From Aquiluna sp. (GTDB lineage: Bacteria > Actinomycetota > Actinomycetes > Actinomycetales > Microbacteriaceae): a stretch of DNA of 64,000 nt. Positions 25,994 through 42,774 of the stretch are shown piece by piece. The stretch is taken from positions 58,046 through 122,045 of the forward strand of contig JAPKCK010000003.1 in NCBI GenBank assembly GCA_028822985.1, in the 5' to 3' direction. Made by a program: the position numbers and the translations under genes. Numbering within the stretch: the stretch's first letter is position 1; each line of letters opens with the position of its first letter. The notes below the pieces were generated by a model. That model was not told the origin of the DNA, ran no database searches, and saw only the letters and a program-made list of their open reading frames with translations.

Positions 25994-26154
25994 TTGGCGC
26001 AGTCCCTAAATTAAAGTTCGGGTTGGTCTGAATTTAATTTTCGTCAGGCAGGTTGAAAGCTCGATAAAATTAGCGAAAAACTAATTAGTATTGAGGTAAC
26101 TCTCCAGCGCCGGGGCCTTTGTCCCGAAGCTGGCAACTTAGGCGAAGGGCTTTC

Positions 26155-27888
26155 ATGTCAAAGCACGCATGGCTAAACCACTATCCGTCGGACGTGCCTC
26201 ACGAGTTAGAGGCTCACTCTTTCCGTAACCTCCCGGATTTACTGGCAGTCGCGACAAAAAAGTACTCAAAGACAATTGCTTTTACGCAGTGCATGCCCAA
26301 TGGCATGAACGGTTCCTTGACCTTCGAGCAGGTTGACAAGCTCAGCGATGACTTTGCCTCTTATCTTCGTGAGGAAGCGGGGCTCAAATCTGGTGAGCGC
26401 GTTGCGGTTCAAATGCCGAATTGTTTGAGCTATCCAATAGTGGCATTTGGTGTCTTGAAGGCCGGGTGCGTGCTAGTGAACACGAACCCTCTTTACACGC
26501 AAACAGAGATGTTGTATCAGTTCTCTGATTCCGGAGCCACTGCATTAGTCGTAGTCGACATGTTCGCCGATAGGTTGACCGGGATCATCGAGAAGACCAA
26601 GATAAAAAGCGTTGTCACCGTTAGTGTGAGCGAGTTCTTCCCCGGACCCGTTGCCGGGATCATCAAGCTGACTCAGAAGTATTGGAGTAAGACGCTCCCA
26701 AAAATCAAGGTAGAGCACACTAGCTTCAGGGACGCTCTGAAACTCGGAAAGAAAGCTTCAGCCATCGACAAGCTGTCTGGATACCTTGAGAATGTTGGGC
26801 CCGATACAGTTGCCGCTCTTCAATACACCGGCGGCACAACTGGTGTTTCAAAGGGTGCAATGTTGACGCATGGAAACTTAGTCAATAACACTCTTCAGAT
26901 GATTTCTATGTGCGGCTCGTACATGAGGCCAGGGGCGGAAATCGTTCTAACTGCTCTTCCGCTATATCACATTTTTGCTTTCACGGTAAATCTCCTGGGT
27001 TTCTACCACCTAGGGGCCCGGAACATCCTGGTTCCATCGCCACGACCACCTAGCAACCTAAAACGTGCATTTGAGAACTATCGGGTGACTTGGCTATCAG
27101 GTGTAAACACACTTTTTAGCGCGCTATTGAATGAGCGCTGGTTTACGGACAGCTCGCCAAAGTATTTGAGGGCATCTGCGGCCGGCGGAATGGCTCTGCA
27201 TGAATCAGTTGCTAAGCGTTGGAGAGAGGTAACTGGAACACCGATCGTCGAAGGCTATGGCCTTACTGAATCTTCTCCAGTCTTGACTTTTAATCCTCTC
27301 GGTGGACTGCAGAAAGACGGCACCATCGGGATTCCAGTTCCCTCGACGGAGGTCCGCTGTGTGGACGAAGAGGGCAATGATGTTCAAATTGGGCAACCCG
27401 GTGAACTTATTGCAAAGGGCCCACAGATCATGCAGGGCTACTGGCAGCGAGCTGACGAAAGCTCCTTAGCACTGCGAGATGGATGGCTCCAAACTGGCGA
27501 CATAGCCCAAGTCGATAGCGATGGTTATTTCACCATAGTTGATCGCAAGAAAGACATGATTCTGGTGAGCGGCTTCAACGTCTACCCGAACGAAGTCGAA
27601 GAGCGAATTGCAAATGTTAGCGGCGTCCGTGAGGTCGGAGTTATAGGCATTCCAGACCAGAACAGCGGTGAAAGGGTTTGGGCCTATGTCGTGGTCTCAC
27701 AGCCCGCACCTTCCACTGAAGATATCGTCTCTCATTGCCGGGAGCACATGGCAGCATATAAGGTTCCGCACCACATTATCTTCGTAGACGAGCTTCCTAA
27801 GAGTCCAATCGGAAAGATTTTGCGCAGAGAACTTAGAGACGGAGCACTCGCTTCCGCATCTTCATCTAACGACGGCAAGGGAGCATAG
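26155..27888 (+). CDS. fadD: Long-chain fatty acid-CoA ligase-like AMP-binding enzyme (FadD-like)
   Basis: LQYTGGTTGVSKGAMLTHGNLVNN, EGYGLTESSPV, GWLQTGDIAQVDSDGYFTIVDRKKDMILVSGFNVYPNEVEE. Confidence 0.9.
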   Translation: MSKHAWLNHYPSDVPHELEAHSFRNLPDLLAVATKKYSKTIAFTQCMPNGMNGSLTFEQVDKLSDDFASYLREEAGLKSGERVAVQMPNCLSYPIVAFGVLKAGCVLVNTNPLYTQTEMLYQFSDSGATALVVVDMFADRLTGIIEKTKIKSVVTVSVSEFFPGPVAGIIKLTQKYWSKTLPKIKVEHTSFRDALKLGKKASAIDKLSGYLENVGPDTVAALQYTGGTTGVSKGAMLTHGNLVNNTLQMISMCGSYMRPGAEIVLTALPLYHIFAFTVNLLGFYHLGARNILVPSPRPPSNLKRAFENYRVTWLSGVNTLFSALLNERWFTDSSPKYLRASAAGGMALHESVAKRWREVTGTPIVEGYGLTESSPVLTFNPLGGLQKDGTIGIPVPSTEVRCVDEEGNDVQIGQPGELIAKGPQIMQGYWQRADESSLALRDGWLQTGDIAQVDSDGYFTIVDRKKDMILVSGFNVYPNEVEERIANVSGVREVGVIGIPDQNSGERVWAYVVVSQPAPSTEDIVSHCREHMAAYKVPHHIIFVDELPKSPIGKILRRELRDGALASASSSNDGKGA

Positions 27889-27890
27889 CC

Positions 27891-28853
27891 ATGAGAAATT
27901 TAATGATCCTGGCAGCGGAAGCGGCAAATGAGCCAACAGTCGTTAATGAGATGGAGCAGACTCTGCTGCGAGCGTTTGTTCTCATTATTATGTTCGGGCT
28001 TGGTGCTGGCCTTACTCCCAAGGACTTCGCACTTGCACTCAGACGCCCCTGGGGCCTAGTTATCGGCTGGATCACCCAGTTTGGCATCATGCCGCTTACT
28101 GCCTACGTTCTTATCGTGACCGTGCTGCTTCCCTTCTCTTCAACTGAGGGCATACTCTTGGTAGCTCTGGGAGCGCTAATCATGGGAAGCGTCCCGGCCG
28201 GCACTACCTCTAACCTCTTCACCTACTTCTCCAAGGGTAATCTTGCATTGAGCGTGACTATGACGGTGAATTCCACTCTCTGGGCGTTCGTGATGACACC
28301 TGCGGTGCTTTTCATCTACTCAAACTTCTTGGGTCTGGACGAGTCTCTAAGCGTTGAGTTCGGCGAGCTCGCATTAGTCATCTTCGGACTCATCGTCCCG
28401 GTTGGCCTGGGGATGTTAGTGCGCCGCTTGAGTGCCAACGTGGGCGCTGTTCTGGAGCTGATAGGTGGAGTGTTTGGGCTTATCTTCATCCCGTTCCTTA
28501 TCATTATCTGGGTTCCACGCAACTGGGAGCTGCTCATGACAACCGAGTGGCCAACCTACGTAGTGGCGATTGGAATGGGTCTTGTCGGGATCACAGTGGC
28601 GTACTACTTCGCAAAGCTGATTCGAGTGCACCCAATGAACGCGAGAACCATTTCTCTGGAGACTGGAATCAACAACGGGCCGCTAGCAATCGCTGTAATC
28701 GTCGCCGTATACATCGACAATCCTGGAGTAGACCAAATTCTGCTTGTTCCCGCGCTCTACTCTTTGTTCATCGTGTTGATTTCAACCGGGGTTACTCTCG
28801 TGTTTAGAAGGGCCAATCTAGCTGCCGAGCAGAAGATCCCGAATCTGCTGTAG
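27891..28853 (+). CDS. Bile acid:Na+ symporter (BASS) family transporter
   Basis: FGLGAGLTPKDFALALRRP, GSVPAGTTSNLFTYFSKGNLALSVTMT, ETGINNGPLAIAV; multi-TM. Confidence 0.85.
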   Translation: MRNLMILAAEAANEPTVVNEMEQTLLRAFVLIIMFGLGAGLTPKDFALALRRPWGLVIGWITQFGIMPLTAYVLIVTVLLPFSSTEGILLVALGALIMGSVPAGTTSNLFTYFSKGNLALSVTMTVNSTLWAFVMTPAVLFIYSNFLGLDESLSVEFGELALVIFGLIVPVGLGMLVRRLSANVGAVLELIGGVFGLIFIPFLIIIWVPRNWELLMTTEWPTYVVAIGMGLVGITVAYYFAKLIRVHPMNARTISLETGINNGPLAIAVIVAVYIDNPGVDQILLVPALYSLFIVLISTGVTLVFRRANLAAEQKIPNLL

Positions 28854-29099: not shown

Positions 29100-30155
29100 A
29101 TGACGGCAGTGATCATTCAGGTCAAAACTTCCCTGCCTGAGCATGTTCATTCTCAATCTGAGGTAACTTCCGCGTTGGCACCCAGGCTCGCACCCACTGA
29201 CGGAACTAGAGCCGTCTTAGAGCGCCTTCATAGCAATTCCAAGATCGAACAGCGTCACTTTGTTTTACCCATTTCGGAATATACGGATATCGATTCGTTC
29301 ACGAGTGCTAATGGACTTTTTGCCGAACATGCCCTAGCGCTGGTGGAGGACTGCACTAAAAGGGCGCTTGATGAAACCGGGCTAAATGCCGACGAAGTTG
29401 ATCATCTTTTCTTCACCACGGTAACCGGTGTCGGCGCTCCTGCACTGGATGTATTGCTTGCCGCCCGAATGGGTTTCCGGTCAGACCTCAAGAGGATTCC
29501 CAGCTTTGGCCTTGGCTGTGCTGGGGGTGCTGCGGGAATAGCTAGAGTCGCTGATTATCTATTGGGTAACCCAAAGGCGGTGGCGCTAGTAGTCTCCGTG
29601 GAGCTGTGTTCATTGACTATCCAGTGGGAGGATCGATCGATGGCCAACTACGTTGGCACGGGAATCTTCGGTGACGGCGCAGCTGCCGTCGTGATGGTGG
29701 GTGGTGAGCACCCTAAGGCCCTGAATGGGATTTCGGTCAAAGACAGCAGAAGCACTTTGTACTCTGATACTGAATCTTTGATTGGCTGGAAGGTTGGCGG
29801 CAGCGGGCTTTCGTTGATGCTTGAGGCCGGTGTACCAGAGATGATAACTGAAAACTTCGCAGCTGAGGTGGATGTCCTTCTTGGTCAACATGGGCTGTCT
29901 CGCAACGACATAGACGTTTGGATAGCGCATCCGGGGGGTCCCAAAATTCTTGAGGCATTTGCTTCATCGCTTGATTTAGCCGACTCCGACTTGTCCGCTA
30001 GCTGGGATGTTATGGCCAGAGCGGGAAACATGTCCTCAGCCGCAGTTCTTCATGTCTTGAACGATCTTTCTGAGCAACCTTCGGCGACAATCGGCTTGCT
30101 GTTTGCGGTTGGCCCCGGAGTCTCTCTTGAGCTTGTCTTGTTGGAGTGGACATGA
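29100..30155 (+). CDS. Type III polyketide synthase (chalcone/stilbene synthase superfamily)
   Basis: Candidate catalytic triad: Cys in FGLGCAGGAAG, His in IAHPGGPKILEA, Asn in RAGNMSSAAVLHVL. Confidence 0.92.
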   Translation: MTAVIIQVKTSLPEHVHSQSEVTSALAPRLAPTDGTRAVLERLHSNSKIEQRHFVLPISEYTDIDSFTSANGLFAEHALALVEDCTKRALDETGLNADEVDHLFFTTVTGVGAPALDVLLAARMGFRSDLKRIPSFGLGCAGGAAGIARVADYLLGNPKAVALVVSVELCSLTIQWEDRSMANYVGTGIFGDGAAAVVMVGGEHPKALNGISVKDSRSTLYSDTESLIGWKVGGSGLSLMLEAGVPEMITENFAAEVDVLLGQHGLSRNDIDVWIAHPGGPKILEAFASSLDLADSDLSASWDVMARAGNMSSAAVLHVLNDLSEQPSATIGLLFAVGPGVSLELVLLEWT

Positions 30156-30688
30156 TCTTTACTGTCAGTGTGATGCTATTCATCGGTCTTATTTTGGCAA
30201 CGGGTGCAGAGCGGATTTACGAACTTGTTGTTTCGACTAGAAATGCAAAACTAGCTTTTACAACAGGTGGTATCGAATATGGTCGCGGTCATTTGCCCTT
30301 CATGATTGCCCTGCACACCGGTCTACTAGGAGGAGCCATAATCGAAGTTGTTCTTTTTGACCGCCAATTTCTTGGTTCTCCGGGCTGGGGATTCCTTGCG
30401 ATTGCCATCGGATGTCAAGCGGCGAGGTATTGGTTTATTTGGGCACTTGGGTCCCAGTGGAATACCAGGGTGATCGTGATTCCAGGTGCGCAGCTTGTGA
30501 GAAAAGGTCCATATTCGCTGCCTTGGCTTCGTCACCCCAACTATTGGGTCGTAGCAATTGAGGGTATCGCCTTGCCCATGGTTCACTCGGCTTGGATTAC
30601 AGCAATCATGTTCACTGTTCTCAACGCTGTATTGCTTCTTGTACTCAGGATCCCCACCGAAAACAAGGCTTTGAAGGGCTTGAGATGA
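30152..30688 (+). CDS. Isoprenylcysteine carboxyl methyltransferase (ICMT) family protein
   Basis: Multi-TM with C-terminal LVRKGPYSLPWLRHPNYWVVAIEGIALP motif; ATGA overlap with the PKS. Confidence 0.85.
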   Translation: MIFTVSVMLFIGLILATGAERIYELVVSTRNAKLAFTTGGIEYGRGHLPFMIALHTGLLGGAIIEVVLFDRQFLGSPGWGFLAIAIGCQAARYWFIWALGSQWNTRVIVIPGAQLVRKGPYSLPWLRHPNYWVVAIEGIALPMVHSAWITAIMFTVLNAVLLLVLRIPTENKALKGLR

Positions 30689-31728
30689 ACAACTACGACG
30701 TAATAGTCGTCGGGGGAGGCCCGGTGGGCATGGCAGCGGCCATTGAGGCTCGTTTGAGCGGCCTATTGGCTGTAGTTGTCGAACCGCGCAGTGGAATAAT
30801 TGACAAGGCTTGTGGTGAGGGCCTAATGCCCGGTGCAATTCCGTTATTAGCCAGGTTGGGTGTTTTTCCCAAGGGGCGTGATCTTGCCGGAGTCACATAC
30901 AGAAGTGGTGGGCACGCTGTGTCTCATCGATTTTCGAGTGGTGTAGGAAAAGGCGTTAGGCGCACTGAGCTTCACGGTAGCCTTAGGTCTCGCTCAGAAG
31001 AACTTGGAGTGGTTTTTGTCGAGGCATCCGTCGGCTCCGTGACGGAAACCGAAAGTGGTTTGGTTGCATCGTGTTCAAATGGTCTGAGCATTTCAGGTCG
31101 GTACTTAATCGCCGCGGACGGCTTGCATTCTGTTATTGCAAAGGCTGCTGGACTAGTGAAGGTGCTTTCGCCCAGGCGGTCAAAACGCTTTGGAATAAGG
31201 CAGCATTTCCACGTTGAGCCCTGGTCCGAATTCATTGAAGTCTTTTACACCAAGACCGCCGAGGTCTACATAACCCCGGTATCAGAAGATCAAGTCGGCG
31301 TTGCAGTCCTAGGACCAAAGTCGACAGACTTTGAGCAAACCATAGCCAGCATCCCAGAGCTCGCGGGAAGGCTAAGAGGTGCCTCACCGGCGTCGCAGCG
31401 TAGTGGAGCGGGCTCATTTCCTCAGCTAACCACTGCACGCACCAAGGGTCGCATCCTTTTGGTTGGCGACGCGTCCGGATATGTGGATGCAATTACTGGT
31501 GAAGGCTTGAGGCTTGGTTTCGCTCAAGCACGAGTGGCGATTGAATGCATTTTGAGTGACAAGCCAGCAAGTTATGAAAAAGCTTGGCGCCGAGTAAGTA
31601 GAGACTTTCGGGTTCTGACTCAAGGTCTAATTTTAGCGGCGAATTCCCCTATCAGAATGGCCATTGTGCCGCTGGCCAGCAGGCTTCCGTGGGTCTTTGG
31701 TTCGGTTGTCAATCGCTTGGCTCGCTAA
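30685..31728 (+). CDS. FAD-dependent oxidoreductase (geranylgeranyl-reductase-/monooxygenase-like)
   Basis: NYDVIVVGGGPVGMAAAIEARLSG, DKACGEGLMP, LLVGDASGYVDAITGEGLRLGFAQA; ATGA overlap with ICMT gene. Confidence 0.9.
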   Translation: MNNYDVIVVGGGPVGMAAAIEARLSGLLAVVVEPRSGIIDKACGEGLMPGAIPLLARLGVFPKGRDLAGVTYRSGGHAVSHRFSSGVGKGVRRTELHGSLRSRSEELGVVFVEASVGSVTETESGLVASCSNGLSISGRYLIAADGLHSVIAKAAGLVKVLSPRRSKRFGIRQHFHVEPWSEFIEVFYTKTAEVYITPVSEDQVGVAVLGPKSTDFEQTIASIPELAGRLRGASPASQRSGAGSFPQLTTARTKGRILLVGDASGYVDAITGEGLRLGFAQARVAIECILSDKPASYEKAWRRVSRDFRVLTQGLILAANSPIRMAIVPLASRLPWVFGSVVNRLAR

Positions 31729-31730
31729 TT

Positions 31731-32567
31731 ATGGTTGCAAACAGACTTAGTTTTCTTCTCAAATCCACCCACCCAATGCCCTCGTTCGCAGTGGCGCTCT
31801 TCGCCACTCTATTTGCTGTTGGTATTGGGCTTGAGGCTCAAAGGGTCGCATTAGTGGGGCTCGCAGTGTTGTTGCAGCAGTTCTCGGTGGGGTTATCAAA
31901 CGACTGGCTGGACCACAAGCGAGATCGCGCTGCCGGACGCACCGACAAGCCTGTGGCACGGGGCTCGTTAGGCGTTTCGCTGGTTAGAAATTCTTCTTTT
32001 GCGTCAGGTGTCCTGGCGCTCGTCGTCTCGGTTTTGCTCGGCTGGGAGAGCGTTGGTTGGATGGTACTTATGCTGATTGCCGGCTGGGGCTACAACCTAG
32101 GGCTCAAAGCAACTGTTTTCTCAGTTCTTCCCTATATGGTTGGCTTTGGTATTTTGCCGGTCTTTGTGACATTGAGCCTCGAGCAGAGCCGGGTCCCTCC
32201 GGCATGGGTTGTGGTTGTTGCAGCCCTGCTGGGAGTCTCCGCGCACTTTGCGAACACTCTGCCGGACTTGCTGCAGGACAGAGCGACCGGAGTCAGAGCG
32301 CTTCCGCACATTGTCGGCCAGAGGGTTTCCGCACTAGTAATTGCTGCTACAGCAATTCTTGCCTCAAGCATTGCTGTGTTTCAAAGCGACACCTTGGCAA
32401 TCTTTATCGGCACAGTTGGCCTGCTGGCTACAGTCTTGTTGGCTGGCACTGCTTCTTGGCTAAGCCTTAGGCCGACCCCACCAAGGGTAATTTTTCCACT
32501 GCTGGTCCTGGCAAGTTTGGTGAACGCAATATTGCTTATGCTCGGTGTTGGGCCGATTGGGGTTTAG
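31731..32567 (+). CDS. UbiA-family prenyltransferase
   Basis: Multi-TM with LSNDWLDHKRDRAAGRTDKPVARG (NDxxDxxxD-like) and second motif region HFANTLPDLLQDRATGVRALP. Confidence 0.88.
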   Translation: MVANRLSFLLKSTHPMPSFAVALFATLFAVGIGLEAQRVALVGLAVLLQQFSVGLSNDWLDHKRDRAAGRTDKPVARGSLGVSLVRNSSFASGVLALVVSVLLGWESVGWMVLMLIAGWGYNLGLKATVFSVLPYMVGFGILPVFVTLSLEQSRVPPAWVVVVAALLGVSAHFANTLPDLLQDRATGVRALPHIVGQRVSALVIAATAILASSIAVFQSDTLAIFIGTVGLLATVLLAGTASWLSLRPTPPRVIFPLLVLASLVNAILLMLGVGPIGV

Positions 32568-38910: not shown

Positions 38911-39360
38911 TTGTGGGTTCTTTCTTGCCCGCAAGATAAGTGCAAGGAAATAGATGAAATCCTTGCGCGATTTTCTACGTCCAGAGCATGGTTTGCTCAG
39001 CCAGCATTACCGTCGACCTATCAACTCCAGACAAGATTAAGGTGCCCCCCTGGCGCTTGTGCCGATCTGGCCTCTGAGTTTTTCAAGCAGGGTATTATTT
39101 GCGAAATTGAAAGCCGGGGGACTGAGGATGAGCGCTATTTAGTCCACCCGAGGCTAGGCATTCATCGACAAGGCATTGACGCATCTGGAGAGCCAGTTAT
39201 CAGAATCGGGCAAATCCAAAGTTTTCTCACTCAGTCTCAGGGCAACATGGCTGAATTTGCTAGGCAGCTAAGGATTGCTGAGGGCCAAGCCTGGTTTGAT
39301 ATCTTTGAACCATTGAGGCTGTTCCCTGAAGGTGTGCGGCTGTTACCAAAAGCCGTTTAG
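38911..39360 (+). CDS. DUF3145-like protein of unknown function (start may be upstream at 38896)
   Basis: WFAQPALPSTYQLQTRLRCPPGACADLASEF and RYLVHPRLGIHRQGIDASGEPVI resemble actinobacterial DUF3145 proteins encoded near fab genes. Confidence 0.7.
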   Translation: MWVLSCPQDKCKEIDEILARFSTSRAWFAQPALPSTYQLQTRLRCPPGACADLASEFFKQGIICEIESRGTEDERYLVHPRLGIHRQGIDASGEPVIRIGQIQSFLTQSQGNMAEFARQLRIAEGQAWFDIFEPLRLFPEGVRLLPKAV

Positions 39361-40589
39361 ACGTTACGGAATGCCAGAACAGCGTTGTGACCCCCAAAGC
39401 CGAAGCTGTTGGATATCGCTATTGCTTCTGGCCTTTGTAGTCGTGCGACAGACCTTGGAACGTTCAACGGAATTGCCGGATCTTGGTTGTCAAGATTGAT
39501 AGTTGGAGGTACCTGCTGCTGCTTTAGCGCCAAAATCGTAAAGATGGCCTCGATTGCTCCGGCGCCGCCAAGCAGGTGTCCGGTGGAAGCCTTGGTAGCG
39601 GCTATCACCAGGTTGTCCGTGTGTGCTCCAAAAACTCTATTTATAGCCGTGTACTCGGCAATGTCCCCGACTGGCGTAGATGTTGCGTGGGCATTGACGT
39701 GTTCGACATCTGAAATTGACGCGTCTGCCTGTTTCAAAGCGTCTAACATTGCTCTCGCCGCGCCAGCACCCTCGGGATCTGGCGCCGTGATGTGATAAGA
39801 ATCACTTGTTACGGAGCCACCGACGATTTCGCAGTAGATTTTTGCTCCCCGAGACTGTGCGGACTCCAGTGACTCTAGAACTAGAGCGCCTGCGCCCTCA
39901 CCCATCACGAATCCGTCTCGGTCAGTGTCGTAGGGCCTAGATGCCGCCTCAGGCGTGTCATTTTTCTTGCTCAACGCATGCATGGCAGCGAAGGCCGCTA
40001 TCGGAAGCGGATGGATGGCTGCTTCGGCACCGCCGGCAACTACAACATCGGCCTCGCCTCGTTGAATTCTATGGAAAGCGTTGGCGATTGCCTCGTTTCC
40101 TGATGCACATGCGCTAACAGCTGTTCTTGCTCCACCCTTAGCGCCCAGCGCCATACCGATTGCTGCCGCTGGTCCGTTCGGCATAAGCATCGGAACAGTC
40201 ATAGGCAGCACTCGTCTTGGCCCACGCTCTTGGAGAGTACTCCACGCGTCCAGAAGAGTCTGTACTCCGCCAATGCCTGTGGCAAAGTCGACTGCCAGTC
40301 GCTCCGGGTCCACTTCTGGATTTCCGGCGTCTGCCCAGGCCTCTCTGGCCGAAATCAAAGCGAATTGGCTGGAGGGATCCAGTCTTTTGGCTTCTTGCGG
40401 GCTGAGAACAGTGCTGGCAGCTATCATCGCTTGACCGGCGAATGTTACTGGCAGTTCGTACTTAGCAACCCAGTCCTGCTCTAGCGTAGATACTCCACTT
40501 TCCCCCCGCAAGAGCGCTTCCCAAGTTGCCATGGCGTCACCGGCAAGGGGAGTTGTCGCCCCCATGCCTGTAACAACTACGCGCCGCAT
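39357..40589 (-). CDS. fabF: 3-oxoacyl-[ACP] synthase II
   Basis: VVVTGMGATTPLAGD, TAVSACASGNEAIANAF, VNAHATSTPVGDIAE, GHLLGGAGAIEAIFT, NSFGFGGHNAVLAF. Confidence 0.96.
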   Translation of the reverse strand: MRRVVVTGMGATTPLAGDAMATWEALLRGESGVSTLEQDWVAKYELPVTFAGQAMIAASTVLSPQEAKRLDPSSQFALISAREAWADAGNPEVDPERLAVDFATGIGGVQTLLDAWSTLQERGPRRVLPMTVPMLMPNGPAAAIGMALGAKGGARTAVSACASGNEAIANAFHRIQRGEADVVVAGGAEAAIHPLPIAAFAAMHALSKKNDTPEAASRPYDTDRDGFVMGEGAGALVLESLESAQSRGAKIYCEIVGGSVTSDSYHITAPDPEGAGAARAMLDALKQADASISDVEHVNAHATSTPVGDIAEYTAINRVFGAHTDNLVIAATKASTGHLLGGAGAIEAIFTILALKQQQVPPTINLDNQDPAIPLNVPRSVARLQRPEAIAISNSFGFGGHNAVLAFRNV

Positions 40590-40590
40590 T

Positions 40591-40839
40591 TTAGTCTTGA
40601 TTCGCCGTTATGTAGCTCACCGCGTCGCCCACAGTGATTAGGTTCTTTACTTCTTCATCTGGGATTTTTACGCTGAACTTGTCTTCGGCGTTGACCACGA
40701 TAGTCATCATCGATATCGAATCGATGTCTAAGTCGTCGGTGAACGACTTCTCCATTTGAACAGCTTCTGCTGCGATACCAGTCTCGTCGTTGACGAGCTC
40801 GGCTAGTCCAGCTAGTACCTCTTGCTGTGTATGTGCCAT
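40591..40839 (-). CDS. acpP: Acyl carrier protein
   Basis: 82 aa with phosphopantetheine site DDLDIDSISMMTIV. Confidence 0.95.
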   Translation of the reverse strand: MAHTQQEVLAGLAELVNDETGIAAEAVQMEKSFTDDLDIDSISMMTIVVNAEDKFSVKIPDEEVKNLITVGDAVSYITANQD

Positions 40840-40879
40840 GTGGGTTTCTCCTAATTGCTTCGTTAGTAACTGAATTATC

Positions 40880-41878
40880 TTATGGGAGTTCTACAACTTG
40901 GGCCGCGAAGGTGAGCCCCGCGCCGAAACCAATTTGCAGCGCATATCCTCCACTCGCTACCTTTTTCTCTTCGAGAATCCGGTGCATTGCGAGCGGAACG
41001 GAGGCAGCGGAGGTGTTTCCAGTCTCCACAATGTCCTTGGCGATAACCACGGAATCTGGAAGCTTCATCTGTTTTGCGAACTCGTCTATGATTCTCAAGT
41101 TTGCTTGGTGCATGACCAGAGCACTTAGATCGCTTGCTTCGATACCTGCAGCGTCAAGGGCCTCTTTGGCCACCTTGGACATTTCCCAAACGGCCCAGCG
41201 AAATACGGTCTGGCCTTCTTGAGTAAGGGTTGGCCATGGAGTTTTGCCGTCTCGGAAGTCCAAGATAGATCCGGTCATGCCGACTTTGTCCCAGCTTGAA
41301 CCGTCAGCACCCCAAATCGTCTTAGAAATTCCAGGGTGATCGCTAGCGCCAACTATTGCGGCGCCAGCACCGTCTCCAAGAAGGAAACTTATGGTTCTGT
41401 CAGTTGGTGAGATAAAGTCTGAAAGCTTCTCGGCACCGACTACCAGTACGTATTTGCACAATCCAGAACGAACTAAAGCATCCGCCTGGGCTATGCCGTA
41501 GCAATAACCTGCGCAGGCTGCGGAAATGTCATAGGCCGCCGCATCGTGAGCTCCAACCAGCTCCGACAGTAACGAGGCGCCAGAGGGGGTTTGGTAGGGA
41601 AACGAAATGGTGGCCAGGATGACCGCACCTATTTCGTTTGGGTCAACGCCAGATTTTGCTATTGCCTCTTTTGATGCCTCCACAGCCAGGTCCATCAGGG
41701 ACTGATCTTCGGCGGCTCTGGTCCGTGTTGCCACTCCGGTCCGCTGCTTAATCCACTCGTCAGAAGAATCAATCGGGCCAGCTATATCATCGTTGGTCAC
41801 AACCTGATTTCCTCTTGCGGCGCCCAGAGCATAAATGCGGGTGTGGGCCACCGGAATGGATTCTTGGAGCTGTTTCAT
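40880..41878 (-). CDS. fabH: 3-oxoacyl-[ACP] synthase III
   Basis: AYDISAACAGYCYGIAQADALV, LVMHQANLRIIDEFAKQ, ETGNTSAASVPLAM. Confidence 0.95.
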   Translation of the reverse strand: MKQLQESIPVAHTRIYALGAARGNQVVTNDDIAGPIDSSDEWIKQRTGVATRTRAAEDQSLMDLAVEASKEAIAKSGVDPNEIGAVILATISFPYQTPSGASLLSELVGAHDAAAYDISAACAGYCYGIAQADALVRSGLCKYVLVVGAEKLSDFISPTDRTISFLLGDGAGAAIVGASDHPGISKTIWGADGSSWDKVGMTGSILDFRDGKTPWPTLTQEGQTVFRWAVWEMSKVAKEALDAAGIEASDLSALVMHQANLRIIDEFAKQMKLPDSVVIAKDIVETGNTSAASVPLAMHRILEEKKVASGGYALQIGFGAGLTFAAQVVELP

Positions 41879-42774
41879 TTAATAACCCTCTCGAAATCAG
41901 TTGGCACCTTCAAGGCTATCGGGTTCGCATTGGGGACCGCTCTTTTTACTAGTCCCGTGAGTGCTCCGGCAGGAGGTAATTCAACAAAATCGAACTGCTC
42001 TTCTGGAAGGTTGGCCATGCACAAGTCCCAACGAACAGGCGCTGTTACCTGGCTGACAAGAGAGTCAATAAATTTTTGTCCACTGCCACAGAGTTGACCA
42101 TCGACGTTGCTCCAAAGCTTCATTATCGGATCCGATACAGCGACTTCGCGAACTGCCTCGGCCAACTCCAGGCGAGCTGAATCCATGTAGCTGGTGTGGA
42201 AGGCACCTGCCACTTTAAGCTCAATAACTCGAGTTTTGGTTGGTGGTGAAGCAATTAGGAGAGCTATCTTGCCTTTGTCTCCTGCAGCAACCAGTTGGCC
42301 GGCACCATTGTGATTGGCTATCTCAAGACCTATTTCTCGAACCGCAAGCATTACTTCAGTGGAGTCTCCGCCAAGGATTGCCGCCATGCTTGTTGGCTGC
42401 TCGGCAGCAGCCTTAGCCATTGCTCGGGCACGGATAGCCACAAGCCTGATAGCTTCCTCGTCCGAAATAACTCCGGTTATTGCGGCAGCTGCAAATTCGC
42501 CAACCGAGTGACCGAGAACTCCCGCGACGGGGGAGTCGCGAAACAATGTCCTGTAGGCGGCAATTGAAGAGGCCACGATAAGCGGCTGAGCAATCGCCGT
42601 GTCCTTAATTTGGGCGTCGTCCGCTGTGGTTCCCAGGCTCACAAGGTCAAGGCCGCTGGCCGATGAAAGTTTTTCCAACTCGGACCGGAACCCTTGGACT
42701 TCTGTAAGCCATGGGCCAAGAAAACCGGCTGACTGGGAGCCTTGACCTGGGCACGCGGCGATCCACATTGTCAT
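41875..42774 (-). CDS. fabD: Malonyl-CoA:ACP malonyltransferase
   Basis: CPGQGSQSAGFLGPWL, VLGHSVGEFAAAAITG, GAFHTSYMDSA. Confidence 0.95.
   Translation of the reverse strand: MTMWIAACPGQGSQSAGFLGPWLTEVQGFRSELEKLSSASGLDLVSLGTTADDAQIKDTAIAQPLIVASSIAAYRTLFRDSPVAGVLGHSVGEFAAAAITGVISDEEAIRLVAIRARAMAKAAAEQPTSMAAILGGDSTEVMLAVREIGLEIANHNGAGQLVAAGDKGKIALLIASPPTKTRVIELKVAGAFHTSYMDSARLELAEAVREVAVSDPIMKLWSNVDGQLCGSGQKFIDSLVSQVTAPVRWDLCMANLPEEQFDFVELPPAGALTGLVKRAVPNANPIALKVPTDFERVIK

Follow-up and report, generated by a model that had tools for sequence, protein, structure and literature searches.

A predicted prenylated phenolic-lipid operon of the srsABC type in a streamlined Aquiluna genome

We analyze a four-gene operon encoding a type III polyketide synthase (PKS), an ICMT-family methyltransferase, an FAD-binding flavoprotein and a UbiA-superfamily prenyltransferase, located in a window of 64,000 nucleotides from Aquiluna sp. 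(assembly GCA_028822985.1, contig JAPKCK010000003.1), and conclude that it probably makes a methylated, prenyl-bearing phenolic or quinone membrane lipid through four predicted steps. Judged by their sequences, the first three genes are the counterpart of Streptomyces griseus srsABC, by proxy of the copy found in Marisediminicola antarctica. On the best reading, the product would resemble the Actinoplanes alkyl-O-dihydrogeranyl-methoxyhydroquinones, compared here by published description of the agq cluster, except that its prenyl group would be unreduced. The gene set occurs widely among actinobacteria, where it is in part understood already, and does not constitute a new kind of pathway; modestly new are the class-wide association with UbiA, the occurrence of this UbiA with two PKS modules, the distinction between hydroxylase and reductase, and the retention of the operon in some streamlined genomes. 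For an orphan operon occurring across actinobacteria, the analysis provides a product prediction that can be tested, and its main interest lies in the retention of the operon in a streamlined 1.28-Mb genome and in a probable oversight in the Pontimonas genome paper.

The operon comprises the following genes:

29100..30155, + strand: type III PKS of the SrsA/Pks11 type (Pfam Chal_sti_synt_N/C; best PDB match Mycobacterium tuberculosis Pks11)
30152..30688, + strand: ICMT-family membrane methyltransferase of the SrsB type (Pfam ICMT, 83.9 bits; RHPNY motif at residue 127)
30685..31728, + strand: group-A flavoprotein monooxygenase of the SrsC type (Pfam FAD_binding_3; profile and fold matches)
31731..32567, + strand: UbiA-superfamily membrane prenyltransferase (Pfam UbiA, 78 bits; NDxxDxxxD at residue 57, DxxxD at residue 179)

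The layout given in the original prediction was confirmed in full, with four co-directional open reading frames (ORFs) at these coordinates, both ATGA overlaps exact and the UbiA ATG lying 2 nt past the stop codon of the FAD gene. The same gene junctions are found in most close congeners. Comparison with four of these yields dN/dS ratios of 0.06-0.08 for the PKS, 0.10-0.21 for the ICMT, 0.06-0.12 for the FAD protein and 0.11-0.16 for UbiA; ratios of 0.06-0.21 across all four genes imply that the proteins are indeed encoded and subject to purifying selection. A scan for promoters and terminators returned no signal clearly exceeding chance. Downstream of the operon lie a homocysteine-methyltransferase-like gene and an amino-acid ABC transporter, in an arrangement that is largely syntenic in the four close congeners. 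The host is a streamlined member of the Microbacteriaceae, with a genome of 1.28 Mb in 26 contigs that is 98% complete. The operon PKS is kept in 6 of the 14 good genomes of the genus and absent from the other 8. Its retention in a genome of this size suggests that some streamlined planktonic cells genuinely benefit from the lipid, even though many relatives have lost it.

The PKS aligns with M. tuberculosis Pks11 with an E-value of 3e-88 and 44% identity, and the catalytic triad proposed for it was borne out, Cys140/His277/Asn310 aligning with Cys138/His277/Asn310 of Pks11. It belongs to the same clade as Pks10 and Pks11 and shares their catalytic triad, but the four-gene operon context is different. 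Among 147 Microbacteriaceae genomes, 59 carry an orthologue of the operon PKS and 47 only a distant (~30%) type III PKS, and no genome in this set has both. Homologues of the operon genes co-occur strongly in relatives, as the original prediction required: PKS, ICMT and FAD genes adjoin in all 20 Microbacteriaceae orthologue loci examined, elsewhere in the class they stay together at 38 of 39 loci with an orthologue, and the pattern recurs in most of a set of 82 loci from named genomes or the plasmid collection. Named carriers include Jiangella, Nocardioides, Georgenia, Janibacter, Knoellia and Streptomyces; the contig scan of named genomes returned Jiangella, Nocardioides and others, and Actinoplanes was not among them.

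This gene triad has a published type. In S. griseus, SrsA makes alkylresorcinols, SrsB methylates them and SrsC hydroxylates them, and a copy in M. antarctica, also a member of the Microbacteriaceae, has been annotated as srsABC with 51-63% identity to the S. griseus genes (PMC6669644). The PKS, ICMT and FAD proteins of the window are 49, 64 and 54% identical, respectively, to those of M. antarctica, and through this copy they can be likened to the S. griseus system in gene order (PKS, ICMT, monooxygenase), enzyme families and tight spacing; the UbiA gene joined to the operon sets the window apart from that system. The original prediction of a distinctive cluster of unknown product was not supported, the triad being class-wide with srsABC as its published type. 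It had also been allowed that a product might already be assigned to such a cluster, and this proves largely true of the triad, through srsABC, and only partly true of the prenylated version, through agq. As described in a later source (Awakawa 2011 via PMC10896814), the agq cluster of Actinoplanes missouriensis yields prenylated, hydroxylated alkylresorcinols, the alkyl-O-dihydrogeranyl-methoxyhydroquinones. By that description, both systems build on a type III PKS whose product undergoes methylation, hydroxylation and prenylation, as a prediction in the case of the window, but the geranyl group of the agq product is reduced (dihydro), whereas a search of the window's genome revealed no GGR-type reductase. 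In the los cluster of Micromonospora endolithica (loseolamycins) a type III PKS likewise stands by a UbiA-family prenyltransferase and a methyltransferase, by annotation, with an acyl-CoA dehydrogenase annotated where the window has an SrsC-type monooxygenase. Overall, the analysis supports the type of pathway first proposed, a phenolic-lipid or quinone route akin to SrsABC but extended by prenylation.

The flavoprotein had initially been described as GGR-like, pointing to a reduced product, but this reading was not sustained: the resemblance is at superfamily level only, and the protein fails tests of both motif and cut-off. Against the GG-reductase (GGR) superfamily model TIGR02032 it scores 103.9 bits, missing the cut-off of 158.8. 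The GGR catalytic motif is PxxYxWxFP (PMC10821996), and YxWxF occurs in none of 153 orthologues of the FAD protein, all of which have YxTP at that place. Its best profile matches are polyketide hydroxylases/monooxygenases and halogenases, and in fold its AlphaFold model (pLDDT 88.5) most resembles aromatic hydroxylases and flavin-dependent halogenases, a GGR-like structure ranking 12th among the matches. The fold by itself cannot tell a hydroxylase from a GGR; the motif and the cut-off, as features of the sequence, can. Because the motif is absent and the cut-off missed, the FAD protein is best read as a predicted ring hydroxylase. Many relatives encode a GGR-type reductase separately, in a fifth gene, a second flavoprotein lying near UbiA; YxWxF...GxG is present in 57 of 61 such ORFs, and the one that was scanned against the GGR model scored above its cut-off. 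In this way the ring hydroxylase and the prenyl reductase can be told apart, although superfamily models merge these two flavoproteins. When the host genome (98% complete) was searched with the second flavoprotein, the sole match was the operon FAD protein, at 30%, and no separate GGR-type reductase was found. Since no dedicated prenyl reductase was detected in the genome, we predict an unreduced prenyl chain.

Five UbiA-family proteins are encoded in the host genome: one that its high Pfam score suggests to be CtaB-like, the MenA of the men locus, two by carotenoid-type genes and the operon copy. The two near carotenoid-type genes lie on separate contigs (L241 on G000:C22 and L242 on G000:C16). 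The operon UbiA was considered as a MenA, CtaB or carotenoid elongase and rejected as such, separate paralogues being present, and the profile of its family matches, among the genome's own UbiA loci, only the operon copy. Across the Microbacteriaceae, this family is present in 57 of 59 genomes with an orthologous PKS and in 25 of the 88 others (Fisher 2.5e-18, with counts that ignore phylogeny), leaving two PKS-bearing genomes without an operon-type UbiA. The gene lies inside the operon in small genomes retaining the PKS; in larger Microbacteriaceae it is unlinked to the triad (0 of 16 loci linked) and frequently faces an MFS transporter gene in convergent orientation. Beyond the Microbacteriaceae, 24 of 39 class loci and 73 of 82 named or plasmid-collection loci have it near the triad. 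Among the 20 genomes with the second PKS type that carry this UbiA, 17 have it within 4 kb of a second, non-orthologous PKS module, made up of a type III PKS, a class I methyltransferase and a FAD_binding_3 protein. In a tree of the family, the linked, unlinked and second-module Microbacteriaceae UbiAs cluster together, with a weakly supported split from the class-wide copies. The best reason to think that this UbiA acts on the phenolic-lipid product is that two non-orthologous modules share it, and the pairing of one UbiA family with two unrelated modules suggests that prenylated phenolic lipids are a common trait among actinobacteria. The family also occurs without either PKS type in three congeners and five other family genomes, and may therefore have another role. 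The three congeners (L243, L244 and L245) retain the UbiA at 54-56% identity, and in L244 a carotenoid-type UbiA and a desaturase lie ~4 kb from it. Against PDB profiles the operon UbiA gives weak matches; the top one is to digeranylgeranylglyceryl phosphate synthase, which is an O-prenyltransferase, and we treat this as a lead only.

In the proposed pathway, the PKS would elongate a fatty acyl starter with malonyl-CoA, possibly also methylmalonyl-CoA, to an alkylresorcinol, on whose ring the ICMT-family enzyme would O-methylate one hydroxyl. The flavin monooxygenase would then hydroxylate the ring to give a 2-methoxy-6-alkyl-hydroquinone, oxidizable to the quinone, and UbiA would add a prenyl group, probably to a phenolic oxygen, with a chain predicted to be unsaturated. 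We infer the PKS, ICMT and FAD steps from the published SrsABC chemistry, and the prenylation step from association in genomes together with the precedent set by agq; a role of the product as a membrane or antioxidant lipid is conjecture. We also offer, tentatively and as a rather doubtful proposal, a more specific account in which streamlined aquatic Microbacteriaceae have joined the four genes into an operon for an alkyl-methoxyhydroquinone with an unsaturated long prenyl chain (e.g. geranylgeranyl), a structural variant not yet isolated that would be kept under genome reduction as an auxiliary redox-active membrane lipid.

The triad could yield an SrsABC-type methoxy-alkylquinone, with UbiA a passenger in the same transcript that serves another isoprenoid pathway, and both its unlinked position in most Microbacteriaceae and its presence without a PKS in a few genomes agree with this, as does the description of srsABC alone as sufficient in S. 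griseus (PMC6669644). We regard a passenger UbiA as unlikely, given its near-constant co-occurrence with the PKS, its linkage in many families and to the second, non-orthologous module as well, and the fact that the genome already has separate MenA, CtaB-like and carotenoid-linked UbiAs.

Turning to the ring itself, Pks11, the nearest solved structure, is a methylated alkylpyrone synthase (PMC6274091), and sequence therefore does not separate resorcinol from pyrone cyclization. It is nevertheless improbable that the operon PKS makes (methylated) alkylpyrones that are later methylated, oxidized or prenylated: a conserved ring monooxygenase and O-methyltransferase suit a phenol, the published cluster with the same layout is of the alkylresorcinol type (PMC6669644), and the clade shared by SrsA, PKS10 and PKS11 spans both outcomes. 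A prenylated quinol-like lipid, the product class put forward here, might also suggest a respiratory quinone pathway that replaces or supplements menaquinone. Such a function is rejected as very improbable because a menaquinone locus is present in the same genome, with MenC, B, E, A, D, F and G and polyprenyl synthase genes, and the lack of the operon PKS in most good genomes of the genus also speaks against it.

Several observations concern neighboring genes and other genomes. A FadD acyl-CoA ligase (26119-27888) and a BASS-type transporter lie upstream of the operon (26119-28853); of four close congeners, one has them at this position. They were rejected as cluster members because the other three lack them here and a FadD homologue was found near only 1 of 19 other family loci; their distribution suggests that they were inserted recently or have been lost repeatedly. 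About 7 kb downstream (39357-42774) lies a cluster probably devoted to fatty-acid synthesis, judged by its FabF-like and FabH-like ORFs and by a match of 25% to the PKS. For the second PKS type of Microbacteriaceae (loci L032-L051), the one locus scanned holds a class I methyltransferase and another FAD protein. The genome paper of Pontimonas salivibrio reports no polyketide synthases (PMC6106888), which is likely an oversight, and the second FabH listed for this species (C3B54_11450) may be, we infer, a misannotated operon PKS. P. salivibrio CL-TW6 carries the full PKS-ICMT-FAD-UbiA operon (L056, G030:C1:410000-422000).
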